64,000 bases of DNA from Chelativorans alearensis (GTDB taxonomy: Bacteria > Pseudomonadota > Alphaproteobacteria > Rhizobiales > Rhizobiaceae): assembly GCF_010993735.1 (NCBI RefSeq), contig NZ_WQNI01000016.1:62001-126000 (forward strand). Reading direction: 5' to 3'. A program made the position numbers and the translations under genes. The notes below the pieces were generated by a model. That model was not told where the DNA came from, did not search any database, and saw nothing but the letters and a program-made list of their open reading frames with translations. Of the stretch, positions 46,274 through 55,146 are shown piece by piece. Within the stretch, counting starts at the first letter, position 1, and the number at the start of each line of letters is the position of its first letter.

Positions 46274-48367
46274 TTGCGCCTTTGTGGCGATCATTGGGTG
46301 GCAGGGTTGTTGAAGACGAAAGCGGCGCTGACGGCGCTGGCACTGGGGCTTTCCGTATCCGGGGTGGGGGCACAGGCCGACAGCCTCCCCGGCGAGGCAC
46401 CGCTGCCGACGCCGCGTCCCTACGCGCCGCTGGACAAGGCGGCGATGGCCGCCTCGCTTCCCTTCGCCGCCGGCATCCTCAACCCGCAAGGAAACCTAGT
46501 GTTATTGAAAGAGGGCCTTCAGGCGCTGTCGAAGGGGGATACCACGGCCGCCAGAAAGGCACGGGAAAGGCTAAAAGAGGGTTCTCTCGACCACGCGATC
46601 ATGGGCTGGGCCATCGCCCTTTCCAATGCCGGGGGCGTGCGCAGCCGGGAGATCGCCGAGACCGCGAAGGCTCTTTCCAGGTGGCCCGGCATGGCGCGGC
46701 TGCGCGCCAACGGCGAGCGCGCGCTCTTCCGTGAGAACCTGCCGGCGAGCGACGTCATCGCCGCCTTCGCCGGCAAGCGCCCCACAACCTTCGAAGGCAC
46801 GATGGCGCTCGCCCGCGCGCATACCGCCCTCGGCAACCGCGGCGCGGCGCGGGCCGTGCTCTCCCCTTTCTGGCGCAGCGAAAAGCTGGGGCCGAGGCAG
46901 GAGGCCGCGCTCCTGAAGGAATTCGGCGGCCTGATACCGGCAGCGGACCACCGCCACCGGATGGAGCGCATGCTGTACGATGACCGCGTGCGCTCGGCCG
47001 AGCGAGTGGCGAAACTTGCCGGCGGCGAGGCGCTGACGCGGGCCTGGGCGGCCGTCATCCGCAACCAGCGCGAGGCGGGCAAGCTGCTCGACGCCGTGCC
47101 GGAGGGCGAGCGCACGGCCGGCTACGTCTTCGCCAAGGCGCGCTACCTGCGGCGAACGGAGAAGTTCCGCGAGGCCGCACAGGTGATGCGGTCGGCGCCG
47201 CGGGATGTTGCAAAGCTGGTCGATCCGGATACCTGGTGGTTCGAACGGCGGGTGCTGTCGCGCGAACTCCTGGACATCGGCGAGGCGAAAACCGCCTACC
47301 AGGTCGCCGCCGGCCATGTCGGCGGAAACCGGGCAAGCAGGGCGGACGCGGAATTCCACGCCGGCTGGTACGCGCTGCGCAGCCTCGGCCAGGCGAAGAC
47401 CGCCGCCCGCCATTTCGCCGGGATCGCCAAGATCGCCGACGGCCCGATTTCTCGCGCCCGCGCCTTTTACTGGCTCGGCCGGGCGGCGGAAGCGGGCGGG
47501 CCGGGAGACGCCAAGGACTATTACCGGCAGGCCGCCGCCTACGGCACGGCCTTCTACGGCCAGCTCGCTGCCGCCAAGCTCGACCGCTCCATCCTAGACG
47601 CCGCCCATCCGGAGCCGACGGACCTGGAGCGCCGGCGGTTTTCCGGGCGCAGGAGCGTGCAGGCGATCCGGCGGCTCGAGGCAGCCGGCGAGGACCGCTA
47701 TGCCGGCATCCTCTACCGTGATCTTGCCGAAGACCTTTCGAATACCGGCGAGTTGGCGCTTCTGGCGGCGATGGCGGAAGAGAGCGGCAACCACTACCTG
47801 GCGCTGCGCATCGGCAAGGCCGCCGCCGGCCGCGGGCTGGAGATCGGTATGCTGGCGCATCCCGTGGGCGCCATACCGGCAAGCGCCTCCGTCTCGGACG
47901 CCGGCAAGGCGCTCGCCTACGCCATCGCGCGGCAGGAGAGCGAGTTCAACACGGGCGCGGTTTCCAGCGCCGGCGCGCGCGGGCTTCTGCAGCTCATGCC
48001 GGGGACGGCCAAGGCCATGGCGCGGAAGGCGGGCCTTGCCTACTCCGCCCCCCGGCTCACCACCGACGCCGGCTACAACGCGACGCTCGGCTCGGCCTAT
48101 CTCAGCGAGCAGCTCGGCCGCTTCGACGGCTCCTATATCCTCACTTTCGTCGGCTACAACGCCGGCCCGCGCCGCGCCGAGGACTGGATGGAACGCTACG
48201 GCGACCCGCGCGGCGCACCGCTCGACGAAGTGGTGGACTGGATCGAGCGCATCCCCTTCACCGAAACGCGCACCTATGTGCAGCGCGTGATGGAGAACTA
48301 CCAGGTCTACAAGATGCGGCTGACCGGCCGCTTCGACATCGAGGAGGATCTGGTGAAGGGACGGTGA
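46274..48367 (+). CDS. slt: soluble lytic murein transglycosylase (Slt70-like)
   Basis: A 697-residue periplasmic enzyme that cleaves the glycan to 1,6-anhydro ends. Signal peptide near residues 9-35 (LTALALGLSVSGVGAQA). A long alpha-superhelical U-domain is followed by the GH23 domain with catalytic Glu555 in IARQESEFNTGAVSSAGARG, then GLLQLMPGTAK and GYNAGPRRA. The start is TTG 46274, supported by GGGGTGA at 46263-46269; GTG 46298 is an alternative. Confidence 0.92.
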   Translation: MRLCGDHWVAGLLKTKAALTALALGLSVSGVGAQADSLPGEAPLPTPRPYAPLDKAAMAASLPFAAGILNPQGNLVLLKEGLQALSKGDTTAARKARERLKEGSLDHAIMGWAIALSNAGGVRSREIAETAKALSRWPGMARLRANGERALFRENLPASDVIAAFAGKRPTTFEGTMALARAHTALGNRGAARAVLSPFWRSEKLGPRQEAALLKEFGGLIPAADHRHRMERMLYDDRVRSAERVAKLAGGEALTRAWAAVIRNQREAGKLLDAVPEGERTAGYVFAKARYLRRTEKFREAAQVMRSAPRDVAKLVDPDTWWFERRVLSRELLDIGEAKTAYQVAAGHVGGNRASRADAEFHAGWYALRSLGQAKTAARHFAGIAKIADGPISRARAFYWLGRAAEAGGPGDAKDYYRQAAAYGTAFYGQLAAAKLDRSILDAAHPEPTDLERRRFSGRRSVQAIRRLEAAGEDRYAGILYRDLAEDLSNTGELALLAAMAEESGNHYLALRIGKAAAGRGLEIGMLAHPVGAIPASASVSDAGKALAYAIARQESEFNTGAVSSAGARGLLQLMPGTAKAMARKAGLAYSAPRLTTDAGYNATLGSAYLSEQLGRFDGSYILTFVGYNAGPRRAEDWMERYGDPRGAPLDEVVDWIERIPFTETRTYVQRVMENYQVYKMRLTGRFDIEEDLVKGR

Positions 48368-48517: not shown

Positions 48518-49405
48518 TTGCAGGACGGTTTTTCCGACTTCTTCTACACCTCCAGCGATGGGCTGAGGCTCCACGCGCGCGTCTACGGCAAATCGCGGGA
48601 CGGCAGGCTGCCTGTCGTCTGCCTGCCCGGCCTCACCCGCAACGCCGGCGATTTTCACGCGCTTGCCCTGCTCCTTGCGGGCGATGAGAAGACGCCGCGC
48701 CAGGTCATCGCCTTCGATTATCGCGGCCGCGGCCGGTCGGCGTATGACCGCGCCTGGCGCAACTACAATATTGCGACCGAGGCCGCCGACATCTCGGCCG
48801 GGCTGACGGTGCTGGGCGTGGAGCATGCCGCCTTCATCGGCACCTCGCGCGGCGGGCTCATCATCATGGCGCTGGCGGCGATGCGGCCGGCGGCGCTGGG
48901 GGCCGTGGTGCTGAACGATATCGGCCCGGTCATCGAGGGGGCGGGCTTGGCGCATATCCGCAGCTATCTGGAGAACGCGCCGAAGCCGCAAAGCATCGAG
49001 GAGGCCGTCCGCCTGCAGAAGGCGGCGCACGGGCAGGCCTTCTCCGGGCTTTCTAAGGCGGATTGGGAACGCCAGACGCGGGCGCTCTACCGCATCGAGG
49101 ACGGCCGCCTTACCGCCGACTTCGACCCGCGCCTCGTCAAGACGCTGAGAACGATCGACCTCAGCCTGCCTCTGCCGGCCAACTGGCCGCAATTCGAGGG
49201 GCTGGGAGGCGTCCCGCTGCTGGCGATCCGCGGCGCCAACTCGGCGCTGCTTTCGGCCGAGACCCTCGCCGAGATGGCACGCCGGCATCCGCGCCTCGAT
49301 TCCATCACCGTCGAGGGCCAGGGCCACGCCCCGCTTCTGGAGACCGGCGATCTGCCGCGCCGCATCGGCGCTTTCCTGACGCGCGCTGAAAGGGCGCGGA
49401 TATAG
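48518..49405 (+). CDS. alpha/beta hydrolase
   Basis: A 295-residue alpha/beta-hydrolase-fold protein. The oxyanion region is CLPGLTRNAGDF, the nucleophile elbow GTSRGG (Ser near 112), an acid in the C-terminal third, and His in GQGHAPLL. It resembles uncharacterised hydrolases of the epoxide-hydrolase/lactonase type. The start is TTG 48518; no ATG is available near the conserved sequence. It converges on the porin across a strong terminator. Confidence 0.85.
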   Translation: MQDGFSDFFYTSSDGLRLHARVYGKSRDGRLPVVCLPGLTRNAGDFHALALLLAGDEKTPRQVIAFDYRGRGRSAYDRAWRNYNIATEAADISAGLTVLGVEHAAFIGTSRGGLIIMALAAMRPAALGAVVLNDIGPVIEGAGLAHIRSYLENAPKPQSIEEAVRLQKAAHGQAFSGLSKADWERQTRALYRIEDGRLTADFDPRLVKTLRTIDLSLPLPANWPQFEGLGGVPLLAIRGANSALLSAETLAEMARRHPRLDSITVEGQGHAPLLETGDLPRRIGAFLTRAERARI

Positions 49406-49460: not shown

Positions 49461-50609
49461 TTAGAAGTTGCGATCGAAGCGCAGGAAGCCGTGCCACTGG
49501 TCGGGATTGTGCAAGCTGCCCGCCACGCCATCGACGACAAAAGGAACATCGCCATCGAACTTGGTGTAGTTGATGGCCAGCTTGGCGTTGAAGTTCTCGA
49601 CGATCTCGTAGTCGATGGTAGCGCCAACCTTGATCGCGTCGAGGTCATCCCCGAAGAGCGGGTCGTGCCCGACATTGCCGAAGTACTGCGCACCGATCGA
49701 GGCCTTGAGACGCGGGTTGATGTGGTAGCCGACGAGACCGCCAGCGCTCCACTCGGCACCGACACGCGGGTGGTCGTCGAGATCATCCGTGAAACCGTGG
49801 CCGATACCGCCGAACGGATCAACCGAGTAGTAGCTGATGCCGCTTTCGTAGGTCGCGATGGCCTCGGCGAAGAAGGCGGTGCCGGGATCGTACGCCACGA
49901 TCGCCTTGGCGGCCCACTCTTCGGCCGTGGCGTCGTAAGCGCCCCACAGGTTCGCGCTGCCCCAAGCCTGGGAGACACCGACGTTGCCGACCACGTTCGG
50001 CGTCCAGTCGTAGGCGTCGTCCACCTCTTCGAGCGCCACCGACACGAACATACCGTTGGCGGTATCGAAGGTGTAGCGGACGAAGTTGACGCGGTCGCCG
50101 CCGCCCTGGTCGAACTCACCCGAAAGACCGGCGTCATAGAGCGTGTCGGACACACCCATAGAGAGGCCGCCGAGCGAGAGGATCGCCTGCTGGACTCGAG
50201 ACGTCGAGGAATTAAGGCCCTGCGAAAGGTGATCCCCCTCGTTGATCCCCGGGATAAAGACCGGATCAGTGCCCGTCGACTGCAGACGCAACTCGATGAA
50301 GCCGCCGAGCGTGCCGTATTCGGTCTCCGAGCGGGCGTCGAACGTGACCGTGGCACGGGCAAGCTTATCCCAGCCATCGGCGTCGCCGAAGTCACCGCTC
50401 GTGTAGCCCATCTCGTAACGGACATAGCCGCCGATCTTGAGGCAGGTCTCGGTGCCGGGGATGTAGAAGAAGCCGGCGCCGTAGACGTCGCAGACGCGGA
50501 CATATTCCATCGGCTCCGGCTCGGGAACGAAGATGGCGTCGGCCGCCTGGGCGCCCGTAGCGGCGACCGTGGCGGCCGCGGAGCCAATGAGAAGGCTCTT
50601 AATGTTCAT
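49461..50609 (-). CDS. porin, Omp2/RopA-type (long copy)
   Basis: A 382-residue outer-membrane trimeric porin of the rhizobial Omp2/RopA family. Signal peptide of 22 residues (MNIKSLLIGSAAATVAATG AQA), then a barrel with GGYVRYEMGY, EYGTLGGFIELRL and the C-terminal FLRFDRNF ending in Phe, needed for BAM recognition. A conserved Cys pair (VCDVYG, ETCLKIGG) may form a disulfide. GGAGGTCAGAAA precedes the ATG. It is divergent from a second porin with an identical 88-bp start; long stretches near the middle are also nearly identical (VVGNVG, WGAYDATAEEWAAKAI). Confidence 0.92.
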   Translation of the reverse strand: MNIKSLLIGSAAATVAATGAQAADAIFVPEPEPMEYVRVCDVYGAGFFYIPGTETCLKIGGYVRYEMGYTSGDFGDADGWDKLARATVTFDARSETEYGTLGGFIELRLQSTGTDPVFIPGINEGDHLSQGLNSSTSRVQQAILSLGGLSMGVSDTLYDAGLSGEFDQGGGDRVNFVRYTFDTANGMFVSVALEEVDDAYDWTPNVVGNVGVSQAWGSANLWGAYDATAEEWAAKAIVAYDPGTAFFAEAIATYESGISYYSVDPFGGIGHGFTDDLDDHPRVGAEWSAGGLVGYHINPRLKASIGAQYFGNVGHDPLFGDDLDAIKVGATIDYEIVENFNAKLAINYTKFDGDVPFVVDGVAGSLHNPDQWHGFLRFDRNF

Positions 50610-50625
50610 TTTCTGACCTCCAGTC
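50538..50625 (-). repeat. 88-bp inverted repeat, left copy (porin start)
   Basis: Read on the minus strand, this segment is identical over 88 bases to 51395-51482 on the plus strand. It covers the ribosome site, ATG and whole signal-peptide region. Identity stops sharply on both sides (GACTGG outward, GGCCGAC inward). Confidence 0.93.
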
Positions 50626-51109
50626 AAAAGTTCTAAATACGGGTCTGGGTATTTTGCTGAAGGACAGCTTTCCCTGCCCCATCCCCACGGTACGAAAAAG
50701 TTGCGCCCCCGGCGCTCCTTCTTCCAAGCCGACATTACTCACGCCGGGCCGGGGATCAACCGCGATTGCCGCACCTTCGCCGTCACGCACACGCTATCGA
50801 CGGCACCTGTTGCACAAAAGCCACGATTGAGCGGGCTACGGTAATGGATCGTTAAGGTTACGGGGCGGCTACGGTAGGAAACGCCGGAGATTTTTTCTCT
50901 TTTCCACACCGCAGCTCGGCGCGAAAGGGCGAATCGTGCGCATTGAATTCACGTTTGCCGGCGCCCATCTGCGCCTTTATGGCCGGCGCGATTCGTGGCG
51001 CGGCCGGACAGTGGAGGAGGCGCCTTGCGCGCTACGGTGTCATTAGTATGCGCGAAGCATGCAAGACATGTTGATTGTGCCGCCGCTTTTCTTTATCCAG
51101 CCTTGCCAC
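50626..51109. other. intergenic region between long porin and tRNA-Ser
   Basis: About 480 bp without a supported gene. GGCTACGGTA occurs twice, 33 bases apart (50834-50843 and 50867-50876), near the expected porin promoter. A pyrimidine run GATTTTTTCTCTTTTCC lies at 50888-50905. The tRNA promoter must be near 51020-51100 but no clear consensus is visible. Confidence 0.5.
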
Positions 51110-51200
51110 GGAGAGGTGGCCGAGTGGTCGAAGGCGCTCCCCTGCTAAGGGAGTAGGCCCCAAAAGGGCCTCGTGGGTTCGAATCCCATCCTCTCCGCCA
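51110..51200 (+). tRNA. tRNA-Ser(GCU)
   Basis: Acceptor arms GGAGAGG (51110-51116) and CCTCTCC (51190-51196), discriminator G, encoded CCA (51198-51200). Anticodon stem CTCCC/GGGAG around the loop CTGCTAA gives anticodon GCU (51144-51146), reading AGC and AGU. The long variable arm (TAGGCCCCAAAAGGGCCTC) confirms a class II serine tRNA, and GGTTCGAATCC is the T arm. Confidence 0.97.
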
Positions 51201-51394
51201 GCCTTCGCCCTGCGGGCTTCGGCTTGCAGGCCACCCGTCTCCCGAAGCCATGGCGAAGGCGGCTGCCAGACCGTTCCGCCGTTCGCGAACGCTCTTTTTC
51301 CTCGAGACGCAGTCTTCCCCTGACAGCGCGGAATCTTCATTCCGATTCGCTTTCCAAGCAAAATCAACCACTTCCGCCCTCCGGCCGCGATTCA

Positions 51395-51482
51395 GACTGG
51401 AGGTCAGAAAATGAACATTAAGAGCCTTCTCATTGGCTCCGCGGCCGCCACGGTCGCCGCTACGGGCGCCCAGGCGGCCGAC
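51395..51482 (+). repeat. 88-bp inverted repeat, right copy (porin start)
   Basis: Identical to the reverse complement of 50538-50625. The two copies are in opposite orientation and enclose about 770 bp that contain the tRNA and both porin promoters. Confidence 0.93.
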
Positions 51483-52376
51483 AGCGTCTGCGACGTCTAC
51501 GGCGCCGGCTTCTTCTACATCCCCGGCACCGAGACCTGCCTCAAGATCGGCGGCTATGTCCGTTACGAGATCGGCTTTGACGAGGACGACGACGGCTGGC
51601 GCAAGCTCGCCCGTGGCACGCTGACAGTCGACGCCCGCTCGGAGACCGAGTACGGCACGCTCGGCGGCTTCATCGAGCTGCGCGGCGACGTCAAGAGCGG
51701 CAGCGTCGGCAACCCCGACGACAACAACTGGATCCGCGTCCAGCAGGCGATCATCTCGCTCGGCGGCTTCTCCATGGGTCTGTCCGACACGCTGTACGAC
51801 GCCGCCCTTTCCGGCGAGTTCGACAACGGCGGCGGCGACCGCGTCCACTTCATGCGCTACACCTTCGATGCCGCCAACGGCGTCTTCGTCACGATCGCCC
51901 TCGAAGAGGCCGATTACAACGAGGACTACACGCCGAACGTGGTCGGCAACGTCGGCATCGCGCAGGGCTGGGGCAGCTTCAACGTCTGGGGCGCCTACGA
52001 CGCCACGGCCGAAGAGTGGGCCGCCAAGGCGATCGCCAAGATCAAGGCCACCGAGCAGCTCACGGTTGAGCTCATGGGCACCTACGAGTCCGACGAGAGC
52101 TTCTACTCGGTCTCGAAGGACGGCTTCGGTGGCTATGAGTGGACGGCCGGCGGCTACCTGAAGTACGCCGCGACGCCGAAGCTGTCGGTCGGCTTCGGTG
52201 GCCAGTACTTCGCCGACGCCCACTTCGATAGTGCCGACAACTACGCCCTCGGCGCTGTGGTCGATTACGAGCTGGTCGAGAACTTCAACACGAAGCTCGC
52301 GGTCAACTACTTCGACGGCGACAACTACGACGACGGCCACGTCGGCGGCTTCCTGCGCTTCGACCGCAACTTCTAA
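51411..52376 (+). CDS. porin, Omp2/RopA-type (short copy)
   Basis: A 321-residue porin with the same signal peptide and ribosome site as the long copy. Mature sequence starts ADSVCDVYGAG, lacking the acidic PEPEP insert of the other, and loops are shorter (about 60 residues less overall). Barrel landmarks GGYVRYEIG, EYGTLGGFIELRG, WGAYDATAEEWAAKAI and terminal FLRFDRNF are kept. Shorter loops may change pore size, as between Brucella Omp2a and Omp2b. The tRNA lies 210 bases upstream. Confidence 0.92.
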   Translation: MNIKSLLIGSAAATVAATGAQAADSVCDVYGAGFFYIPGTETCLKIGGYVRYEIGFDEDDDGWRKLARGTLTVDARSETEYGTLGGFIELRGDVKSGSVGNPDDNNWIRVQQAIISLGGFSMGLSDTLYDAALSGEFDNGGGDRVHFMRYTFDAANGVFVTIALEEADYNEDYTPNVVGNVGIAQGWGSFNVWGAYDATAEEWAAKAIAKIKATEQLTVELMGTYESDESFYSVSKDGFGGYEWTAGGYLKYAATPKLSVGFGGQYFADAHFDSADNYALGAVVDYELVENFNTKLAVNYFDGDNYDDGHVGGFLRFDRNF

Positions 52377-52768: not shown

Positions 52769-53728
52769 ATGCCTCATGATCTGCATGCCGTTGGCAGCAA
52801 CAATGATGAATGGGTCACGAGCCCGGTAGCCGAGTATTCGGTGACGTTCGGCACCACGCCGTTGCGGGTTGTCGATACGTTCAGCCTCAAGGAACTCTTC
52901 GCCAAGTTCGGCGACGTTCTCTGGGAACCCGGACGACACAAATACAACGTCACCTCATTCATCGGCGAACTGGATGAACTGCTGCTAGCCAGGCGCTTCA
53001 GCGCCTTCGATCAGGAAACGCTCGACGACCTGATCGGAAAATTACGCTCCCGCGGGAACAGCAACGCGACCATCAACAGAAAGATGGCGGCGCTGAGCAA
53101 GTTGCTGCGGAAGGCATATAAGATGGGATGCATCCACAGTCTGCCGGAATTCCGGCGGCAGAAGGAGAGAGCGGGGCGGATCCGTTTCCTCGACATGGAG
53201 GAGGAGACGAGGCTGTTCACCGCCATCCGCGCGCGCAGCGAAGACGCCTACAGGCTGTGCATTTTCCTGGTGGACACGGGCTGCAGACTGGGCGAGGCGA
53301 TCGGGCTGACCTGGAACGACGTGCAGGGCGGGCGCGCCAGCTTCTGGATCACCAAATCCGCGCGCAGCCGCACCGTTCCCATGACCGCCCGCGCGCAACG
53401 CGCCGTGAAAATCCCGAAAAACGGGCATAAGGGCCCCTTCGCCATGCTGCAGCAGGCGCCTTTCCGCGCCATCTGGAACGAGGCCAAGGCCGAGGTCGGC
53501 CTCGGGACCGACACCCAGGTGGTGCCGCACGTCCTGCGCCACACCTGCGCCTCCCGCCTGGTGCAGGGCGGGATCGACATGCGCCGCGTGCAAATGTGGC
53601 TCGGCCACCAGACCCTGCAGATGACAATGCGCTACGCCCACCTGGCGACAAGCGACCTCGACCCCTGCGTCGACGTACTGGAAATGACCTGCCGCAAGCA
53701 GGCAAAGAGGGCGGGCGCGGCGGCATAG
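52769..53728 (+). CDS. tyrosine recombinase / phage-type integrase
   Basis: A 319-residue site-specific recombinase. All catalytic residues are present: Arg173 (DTGCRLGEA), Lys196 (TKSARS), His254 and Arg257 (HVLRH), His280 (WLGHQ) and nucleophile Tyr289 (MRYAHL). The N-terminal SAM-like core-binding region spans about 35-125 (NRKMAALSKLLRKAYKMG). No excisionase, relaxase or phage genes are near, so it is an orphan, either a remnant of an integrated element or a domesticated recombinase. ATG 52769 lacks a strong ribosome site. Confidence 0.9.
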   Translation: MPHDLHAVGSNNDEWVTSPVAEYSVTFGTTPLRVVDTFSLKELFAKFGDVLWEPGRHKYNVTSFIGELDELLLARRFSAFDQETLDDLIGKLRSRGNSNATINRKMAALSKLLRKAYKMGCIHSLPEFRRQKERAGRIRFLDMEEETRLFTAIRARSEDAYRLCIFLVDTGCRLGEAIGLTWNDVQGGRASFWITKSARSRTVPMTARAQRAVKIPKNGHKGPFAMLQQAPFRAIWNEAKAEVGLGTDTQVVPHVLRHTCASRLVQGGIDMRRVQMWLGHQTLQMTMRYAHLATSDLDPCVDVLEMTCRKQAKRAGAAA

Positions 53729-53764: not shown

Positions 53765-53917
53765 CCCCTCTGTCCTGCCGGACATCTCCCCCACGAGGTA
53801 GGAGATTGCGCCGGCCGCTTGCGCCGGCACCTGTTCTGCGATGTCAGCGATTGGCGAAAGTCGCCGCGGCAGCCAATCTCCCCCCGTGTGGGGGAGATGT
53901 CCGGCAGGACAGAGGGG
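53765..53917. mobile_element. MITE-like element with perfect 30-bp terminal inverted repeats
   Basis: CCCCTCTGTCCTGCCGGACA plus TCTCCCCCAC at 53765-53794 is matched exactly by its reverse complement at 53888-53917. Inside, GGAGATTG and CAATCTCC form a second pair, and the centre holds GCCGGC-type palindromes. It has no coding capacity and fills most of the gap between recombinase and aminotransferase (53729-54033). Elements with CTGTCCTGCCGGACATCTCCCC ends are, as I recall, common in Mesorhizobium-type genomes. Confidence 0.85.
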
Positions 53918-54033: not shown

Positions 54034-55146
54034 ATGCCCCAGCGCCCTCCCCTCACCCCGCTTGTCGACAGCCTTCCCGCCACCGTGCCCTTCGTCGGAC
54101 CGGAAACGCAGGAGCGCAATCGCGGGCGGCCCTTCCGCGCCCGGCTCGGCGCCAACGAGAACGGCTTCGGCCCCTCGCCCAAAGTGGTCGAGGCGATGCG
54201 GGCGGCCGCGCCCGAGATGTGGAAATATGGCGACCCGGAGAGCCACGACCTCAGGCACACGCTCGCCGCCCTTCACGGCGTGGCACCGGAAAACATCGTT
54301 GTCGGCGAAGGCATCGACGGGCTGCTCGGCCTCATCGTGCGGCAGTATGCGGAGCCGGGCACGCCGGTCGTCACCTCGCTCGGCGCCTACCCCACCTTCA
54401 ACTATCATGTGGCCGGCTTCGGCGCGCGGCTCGTCACCGTACCCTACGAGGACGACCGGGAGAGCCTCAACGGGCTGCTTGAGGCCGTGCGGCGCGAGAA
54501 GGCGCGCATCGTCTACCTCTCCAACCCGGACAATCCCATGGGCACCTGGTGGGAAGCGGACGAGATCGCCCGCTTCATCGCAGCGCTCCCCGAGACCACT
54601 ATGCTGGTGCTCGACGAGGCCTATTGCGAGACCGCGCCCGCCTCCGCCCTGCCGCCGCTCGAGCCGGCGCGGCCCAACGTCCTGCGCATGCGCACCTTCT
54701 CCAAGGCCTACGGGCTGGCGGGGCTCAGATGCGGCTATGCGATCGGCGAGGCGGAGGCGATCCGCGCCTTCGACAAGGTGCGCAACCATTTCGGCATGAC
54801 GCGCATGACGCAGGCGGCCGCCCTTGCCGCACTCAACGACCGGGCGCATCTTGAGTGGGTGGTCGAGGCCGTCGACGCCTGCCGGCAGCGCCTCACGGCG
54901 GTCGCCGGCGCGCACGGGCTTGCCGCCCTCCCCTCGGCGACCAATTTCGTCACCATCGACTGCGGCGGCGACGGCGCCTTCGCCATGCGGGTGCTCGAAG
55001 CGCTCGGCGCGCGCGACGTCTTCGTGCGAAAGCCCATGGCCCCCGGCCTCGACCGCTGCATCCGCGTCAGCGTCGGCCCGGAGCCCGAGATCACCGTCTT
55101 CGAGGCAGAGCTGGGGGCAGCGCTGGAGAAGGCACGGCGAGGCTGA
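54034..55146 (+). CDS. HisC-like PLP-dependent aminotransferase
   Basis: A 370-residue class I/II aminotransferase closest to histidinol-phosphate aminotransferase by layout. Substrate-anchor region LGANENGFGPSP, SNPDNPMGTWW with the PLP Asn, LDEAY with the PLP Asp, and PLP lysine in TFSKAYGLAGLRCGY. True hisC usually sits with other his or tyrA genes; here it is isolated, so it may act on aromatic amino acids or another substrate. A weak hairpin (GGAGCC/GGCTCC, 55151-55172) follows the stop. Confidence 0.85.
   Translation: MPQRPPLTPLVDSLPATVPFVGPETQERNRGRPFRARLGANENGFGPSPKVVEAMRAAAPEMWKYGDPESHDLRHTLAALHGVAPENIVVGEGIDGLLGLIVRQYAEPGTPVVTSLGAYPTFNYHVAGFGARLVTVPYEDDRESLNGLLEAVRREKARIVYLSNPDNPMGTWWEADEIARFIAALPETTMLVLDEAYCETAPASALPPLEPARPNVLRMRTFSKAYGLAGLRCGYAIGEAEAIRAFDKVRNHFGMTRMTQAAALAALNDRAHLEWVVEAVDACRQRLTAVAGAHGLAALPSATNFVTIDCGGDGAFAMRVLEALGARDVFVRKPMAPGLDRCIRVSVGPEPEITVFEAELGAALEKARRG

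Follow-up and report, generated by a model that had tools for sequence, protein, structure and literature searches.

The window analysed here is a stretch of 64,000 nucleotides (nt) from Chelativorans alearensis (assembly GCF_010993735.1, contig NZ_WQNI01000016.1, positions 62,001 to 126,000 of the forward strand). The element in question is the locus within it at which two divergent porin genes of the Porin_2 family, porin A and porin B, lie less than about 1 kilobase (kb) apart, as at omp2-type loci, with a gene for a serine transfer RNA (tRNA-Ser) between them. The 5′ ends of the two porin genes form a perfect inverted repeat, and the segment that it encloses is found in opposite orientations in related species. 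We call the side of the segment next to the 5′ end of the tRNA gene P5 and the side next to its 3′ end P3. The central features, with lengths in base pairs (bp) where given, are:

49461..50609, minus strand: porin A, 382 amino acids, PF02530 Porin_2, now joined to the conserved P5 leader
51411..52376, plus strand: porin B, 321 amino acids, PF02530 Porin_2, now on the unconserved P3 side
50538..50625, minus strand: left 88-bp arm of the perfect repeat (in porin A: ribosome site, start codon and signal-peptide codons)
51395..51482, plus strand: right arm of the perfect 88-bp repeat (the matching part of porin B)
50410..50497, minus strand: second 88-bp arm, within porin A
51484..51571, plus strand: second 88-bp arm, within porin B
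50626..51394, no strand: invertible segment of 769 bp; in C. xinjiangense it is turned around between collinear flanks and porins
51110..51200, plus strand: tRNA-Ser(GCT), which marks the orientation of the segment

The first-pass annotation had described a perfect 88-bp inverted repeat enclosing the tRNA gene, with the ribosome site, start codon and signal-peptide region of the two porins identical at a distance of about 770 bp. This description proved exact: the arms (50538-50625 and 51395-51482) are 100% complementary over 88 bp each, they are 769 bp apart with tRNA-Ser(GCT) between them, and each consists of the 16 bases 5′ of the ATG, GGAGG included, and 72 coding bases of its porin. A longer inverted pair of 98 nt, with 96% identity, surrounds these arms. 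Moreover, we found a second perfect 88-bp pair (50410-50497 and 51484-51571) that had been overlooked; it is displaced because of an insertion in porin A, and it extends the inverted homology into the mature proteins, with lower identity along both whole genes. Across the 64 kb of the window there are six perfect inverted repeats that reach 25 bp or more, and five of them fall within porin A and porin B, which rules out a chance repeat. The inverted repeats flank a putative control segment, as they do in invertible switches, although the promoter in this segment is a predicted one. An Rfam search returned the tRNA alone, plus one match below the gathering score on its opposite strand. The genome has no other close copy of this tRNA-Ser(GCT) gene: the second-best match along its length has 76% identity. 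A sequence search of the PDB with porin B gave no match at E ≤ 1.

The two sides of the segment differ in conservation. Particularly, on the P5 side conservation across genera covers about 140 nt upstream of the start codon, with more blocks up to about −240 and beside the tRNA gene, versus only the last 20-25 nt before the start on the P3 side. The corresponding features of the window are:

50610..50749, minus strand: P5 leader, 140 nt, kept across genera (GGGGATGGGG...CTGTCCTTCAGC...CCCAGACCC...TTGACTGGAGGTCAGAA)
50769..50809, minus strand: extra conserved block upstream of P5, possibly a promoter or regulator site
51070..51102, plus strand: conserved block immediately 5′ of the tRNA gene, probably the tRNA promoter
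51201..51394, plus strand: P3 side, from the tRNA gene to about −25 of porin B, with no cross-genus conserved element

When identity was counted in bins of 25 nt, the first 75 nt of P5 showed 80-100% in all 17 pairs of loci compared, whereas the P3 bins from −26 to −150 showed 16-72% in 15 of them; the exceptions are the window and L112 (76-92%) and the window and L109, for which the first such bin reaches 80%. The contrast is sharpest between L181 and L180, whose P5 sides are 100% identical over 150 nt while their P3 sides beyond −25 are 44-68% identical. A P5 profile from which the shared last 20 nt had been removed matched the left side only in 33 of 54 loci, the right side only in 19, and both sides in 2. 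The promoters were said in the first-pass annotation to lie on both sides of the enclosed segment, and this is half right: there is a conserved porin leader on the left side and none on the other. What is common to both sides is the shared leader, which on the P3 side of many loci forms a dyad (TTCTGAC-TGGAG-GTCAGAA); ahead of it, a CGATTC stretch is conserved on P3 in many genera. Folding of the P5 RNA gave a plausible GGGATGGGG/CCCAGACCC helix, a CTGTCCTTCAG hairpin and a hairpin over the ribosome site. Two-sided changes were found in 0 of 18 pairs of this fold, as the pairs hardly vary, so the fold is no proof of structure.

To compare orientations we used the order of the flanking genes, smpB-dapA-slt-(hydrolase)-porin...porin-(recombinase)-aminotransferase, as the reference, and wrote the state as ">" where P5 drives the slt-side porin and as "<" in the opposite case. 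In the window the outer flanks are:

46274..48367, plus strand: slt, lytic transglycosylase gene, outer flank and orientation reference
48518..49405, plus strand: alpha/beta hydrolase gene, left outer flank
54034..55146, plus strand: HisC-like aminotransferase gene (PRK08153), right outer flank

The set consists of 54 loci, each counted once, whose divergent porins both carry the leader GGAGGTC; the window brings the number to 55. Duplicate loci were left out, as were L148 and L152 (right porin without the shared leader), loci lacking slt, dapA or smpB for orientation, and loci gathered after the main set. The listing of slt positions covered part of a total of 185. In this set 36 loci are ">" and 19 are "<", in a sample that is not random, since near relatives are dense in it and five genomes (G177, G170, G021, G123 and G050) were chosen because a pattern search suggested "<". 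A less biased pattern survey of 199 genomes, which includes single-porin loci, placed P5 within 16 kb of slt in 69, of which 59 are ">" and 10 are "<", one of the latter (G050) lying on the other side of slt. The orientation is thus not fixed between species.

The closest relative found is C. xinjiangense (L109), whose slt gene is 95% identical to that of the window. Its flanks and both porins are collinear with ours, but the intergenic segment is inverted (649/762 identities when inverted versus 316/722 when direct), with the switch points at the arms; C. salis (L112), on the other hand, shares the orientation of the window (618/718 direct). The P3 side of C. xinjiangense is also about 250 bp longer than that of the window. 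The same inversion is seen in L182/L180 (609/656 inverted versus 186/484 direct), L181/L180 (559/655 versus 191/484), L171/L127 (539/713 versus 238/567), L171/L172 (558/713 versus 237/554) and L181/L131 (489/653 versus 222/477), while control pairs in the same state align directly (L127/L172, 587/711; L181/L182, 561/655). In a 55-row tree built from SmpB, DapA and Slt, the state changes at least 10 times. Counted relative to the side of the neighbouring recombinase gene there are 7 changes, and the side of this gene itself changes 3 times. The window and L109, L171 and L127, and L153 and L166 are sister rows in opposite states, and L180 stands in an unresolved trio with L181 and L182. The recombinase gene is on the slt side, elsewhere being on the opposite one, in L126, L127, L168-L172, L174 and L189-L191, as if the whole porin-recombinase block had turned.

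The leaders turn together with the tRNA gene. In 39 loci this gene lies between the porins, and its direction agrees with the leader type in 38 of them (18 with both ">", 19 with both "<", and the window), on which grounds we reject relocation of the tRNA gene alone. These results show that the segment has been inverted repeatedly between species, with the switch points at the arms in the pair that was mapped closely. Recombination between the repeats had been predicted to invert the segment and swap the promoters between the porins; the first part is borne out between species, time and again, but not the notion of two equal promoters.

Loci with a single shared-leader porin tell which side of the segment is retained. 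We counted 38 of them and dropped three whose sequence breaks off less than 1.1 kb from the leader (L176, L192 and L206; at L192 a second shared leader lies past the edge of the stretch, with a recombinase gene farther on). Of the other 35, P5 is present in 33, so that the porin retained is nearly always the one joined to P5. The two without it are a truncated relic (L124) and one half of a split locus (L173), whose other half, L048, has the tRNA gene and P5. The 33 include C. intermedius (L116) and N. aestuarii (L120), whose other shared-leader porins lie elsewhere (L115 and L121); in 25 of the 33, no second porin was found in the stretch examined. In three species the shared-leader porins are split (L115/L116, L120/L121 and L173/L048): one porin is at slt and its partner on another contig, where the split-off porin has the tRNA gene with it in one species and the genes for the recombinase and the aminotransferase in the other two. 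The retention of P5 in 33 of 35 loci leads us to infer that it carries the working promoter and leader, in which case the porin on P3 may be silent or weakly expressed. The copy away from P5 is not decaying in the 55 two-porin loci, since 109 of their 110 porins are longer than 250 amino acids. At L133, L134 and L140 the tRNA-Ser gene is followed on its 3′ side by 2-6 kb of other DNA, which looks like islands inserted at that end of the gene.

The two porins of a locus also exchange sequence. Porin bodies are each other's nearest relatives within 16 of the 55 loci in the tree, and the arms are homogenised: in 26 of the 55 they match without a difference over 75 coding nt, with a mean identity over this length of 96.6% within loci versus 79.1% between genomes. 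Both observations point to gene conversion between the copies, as at omp2-type loci. The porins of the window are not sisters within the genome; each pairs with the same-side porin of C. xinjiangense. Porin-body trees gave no left/right orthology, because of gene conversion. Perfect identity ends 16-21 nt 5′ of the start codon, where the segment proper begins, in 52 of the 55 loci, and 2 nt 5′ of it in L053, L071 and L129. The perfect tracts are longer in loci flipped relative to the recombinase gene (median 191 bp, minimum 80, n=10) than in default loci (median 81, minimum 21, n=43; one-sided p=0.0066, kinship ignored), which favours homologous recombination.

Taken together, these results make it probable that the locus is a porin pair of the omp2 type whose control segment can invert and so switch P5 between the porins. 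The inverted arms, which are the 5′ ends of the divergent porin genes, would be kept alike by recombination, and crossing-over between them would turn the 769-bp segment, as it has been turned between species. The segment would bear one conserved porin leader, P5, on the 5′ side of the tRNA gene, probably with its promoter, and P3 holds no cross-genus control element beyond about −25. As there is a single conserved leader, each inversion takes this sole conserved porin control region away from one porin and gives it to its partner: P5 would be joined to either of them, with the other left behind the tRNA gene, presumably weak or silent. Judged from the single conserved leader, the orientation would then control porin expression. 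Inversion may take place within populations too, by an enzyme for which there are candidates, and its likely role would be alternation, within a population, between two pores that differ in permeability or antigenicity.

Several observations weigh against this explanation. The orientation was compared between species, with one genome per species. Part of the tree shows a single orientation, with ">" at each of the 13 Phyllobacterium-type loci, so flips may be rare, and the sister pair L153/L166 aligns only weakly better inverted (731/1350) than direct (582/1322). At L187, the sole exception among the 39 loci, tRNA gene and leaders are out of register; a third porin lies beside the pair there. 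L128 and L129 have P5-like leaders on both sides, and between the window and C. salis conservation is fairly good on the P3 side, too. Finally, a sigma-70 consensus scan of 50600-51420 found no match, and the promoter itself was not located.

Homologous recombination is not the only candidate for turning the segment, because a porin-linked tyrosine recombinase gene stands beside the pair:

52769..53728, plus strand: tyrosine recombinase (Phage_integrase, PF00589), candidate invertase, with an uncertain N-terminal start

This gene might encode a dedicated invertase acting at a short site in the arm, in place of RecA-type homologous recombination, an alternative that we hold to be tentative though a serious contender. 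It is found beside the porins in 53 of the 55 two-porin loci (L128 and L129 are the exceptions) and is absent from the stretch examined in all 33 complete single-leader P5 loci, a distribution that makes it a candidate. Homologues at E ≤ 1e-40 occur in 66 of the 199 genomes, in single copy in 64, and the porin neighbourhood was inspected for part of these 66: among 20 further homologues, 18 have a porin next to them, no more than about 550 bp away, and the remaining 2 are located at the ends of contigs. Seven species pairs gave ratios of nonsynonymous to synonymous substitution rates of 0.01-0.13, and conservation is at least 95% for R173, K196, H254, R257, H280 and Y289. These residues are presumably the catalytic set expected of a tyrosine recombinase (R, K, H, R, H/W, Y). 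Such strong purifying selection, the conserved catalytic residues and the fixed place beside porins rule out a decaying integrase left by a phage. A stable, constrained gene that is linked to porins is again what makes it a candidate invertase, and the dyad in the shared leader would suit a recombination site.

Merged recombinase matches contain stops in five loci (L053, L064, L067, L135 and L174), none of them flipped, and the matched stretch has no internal stop in any of the ten flipped loci. None was found either in nine loci that were rechecked, seven of them flipped (L109, L130, L131, L166, L171, L178 and L188), and the apparent stops in the matches of G143, G051, G189 and G170 (L130, L131, L136 and L189) are natural gene ends. 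A 30-bp perfect inverted repeat (at 53765 and 53888) lies downstream of the gene in the window, and in L200, L201 and L230-L233 the porins are convergent with a recombinase gene between them, one porin having a P5-like leader in most of these loci. Against a dedicated invertase, the shared leader is equally conserved, by eye, in loci without the recombinase, so it is not restricted to recombinase-bearing loci and need not be a recombination site. Moreover, adjacency alone would explain the joint loss of the gene with the second porin; L124 and L173 keep it next to the P5-less porin although the partner is lost or apart; and the long identical tracts of the flipped loci favour homologous recombination. 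The protein did not fall into a curated invertase family, as it scored 41.9 and 29.8 bits with the NCBIfam models for tyrosine-type DNA invertases, whose cut-offs are 222 and 221.

It is also conceivable, if unlikely, that gene conversion between the inverted paralogues yields inversions as rare side effects, which are occasionally fixed and have no regulatory role, the porins being kept for other reasons. The 16 loci with sister porins make recombination between the copies common, which agrees with this idea, as do the longer perfect tracts of flipped loci and the Phyllobacterium-type loci without flips. With one leader conserved, however, each inversion changes how both porins are controlled, and selection should be able to act on this; flips also occur between close sister species. 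We regard as about equally doubtful the proposal that both sides have working promoters and both porins are always expressed under different signals, which inversion would exchange. The double leaders of L128 and L129, the CGATTC stretch on P3, the fairly conserved P3 side of the window and C. salis and the intact reading frames of both porins would all agree with two promoters, but P3 beyond −25 is poorly conserved in 15 of the 17 pairs in which P5 is well conserved. Lastly, we reject assembly errors caused by the inverted repeat: draft contigs do end in or next to porins (L176, L205, L207, L216, L221, L222, L224 and L229), so the locus is often broken in short-read assemblies, but the perfect arms are at most 232 bp long, genomes in few contigs (number in brackets) show both states (">" in G240 (1) and G245 (5); "<" in G237 (2), G242 (2), G250 (5) and G177 (1)) and the state follows phylogeny in large clades.

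The proposed switching of P5 by inversion has precedents in other bacteria. The omp1 locus of Dichelobacter nodosus is reported to vary the phase and antigenicity of an outer-membrane protein through DNA inversion (Moses et al. 1995). That system reportedly has four genes and short crossover sites, whereas the window has two genes, a tRNA gene in the segment and arms that are the 5′ ends of the genes. In the sap S-layer system of Campylobacter fetus, one promoter lies on an invertible segment between opposed genes with identical 5′ ends, and inversion is RecA-dependent; our locus differs in protein family and phylum, and by the linked tyrosine recombinase gene. In fim-type switches a tyrosine recombinase gene (FimB/FimE) adjoins the invertible control segment. 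An intact gene of this kind is linked to our element as well, but here the arms are coding sequence of tens to hundreds of bases, not short dedicated sites, and the recombinase is a candidate. Among the open-access titles and abstract beginnings searched, none reported an inversion at an omp2-type or rhizobial porin locus, which is weak evidence of novelty; PMC5596481 and PMC4081994 concern an unrelated 944-kb inversion.

The closest parallel is in Brucella, as the first-pass annotation had noted. In B. pecoris (L209) the order is smpB, dapA, slt, porin with P5, tRNA-Ser, P3, porin, recombinase and aminotransferase, the same as in the window except that no hydrolase gene was found at the locus. 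With the gene order nearly identical in the genome compared, the locus of the window is very probably the counterpart of omp2a/omp2b. The Brucella genes are described as divergent and about 830 bp apart, they undergo gene conversion, and omp2b alone has been shown to be expressed (PMC7050475), so that a divergent Porin_2 pair with gene conversion between the copies is common to both and the parallel stands. Omp2b is reported to be essential in B. melitensis (PMC2952587). The main text of PMC7050475 contains no words beginning with tRNA, inver, orientation or promoter, and does not discuss inversion of the segment, the tRNA gene or a single leader.

What an invertible P5 segment offers is a concrete mechanism for the two recombining divergent porins of many relatives of Chelativorans, B. 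pecoris included. A bolder version, which we think rather unlikely as it stands, is that across the Rhizobiaceae in the wide sense, relatives of Brucella included, the porin pair, the leader and a vertically inherited, porin-linked recombinase form a heritable switch, in which the recombinase turns the leader together with the single-copy tRNA-Ser gene. If true, this would answer in terms of mechanism an old question about omp2a/omp2b, namely why a second porin persists when one is expressed. The results also point to an uncharacterised family of tyrosine recombinases that stays with porin genes. Moreover, if the inversion works in populations, a large group of bacteria from soil, plants and animals would have phase variation of a major outer-membrane pore, with a single-copy tRNA gene riding along.

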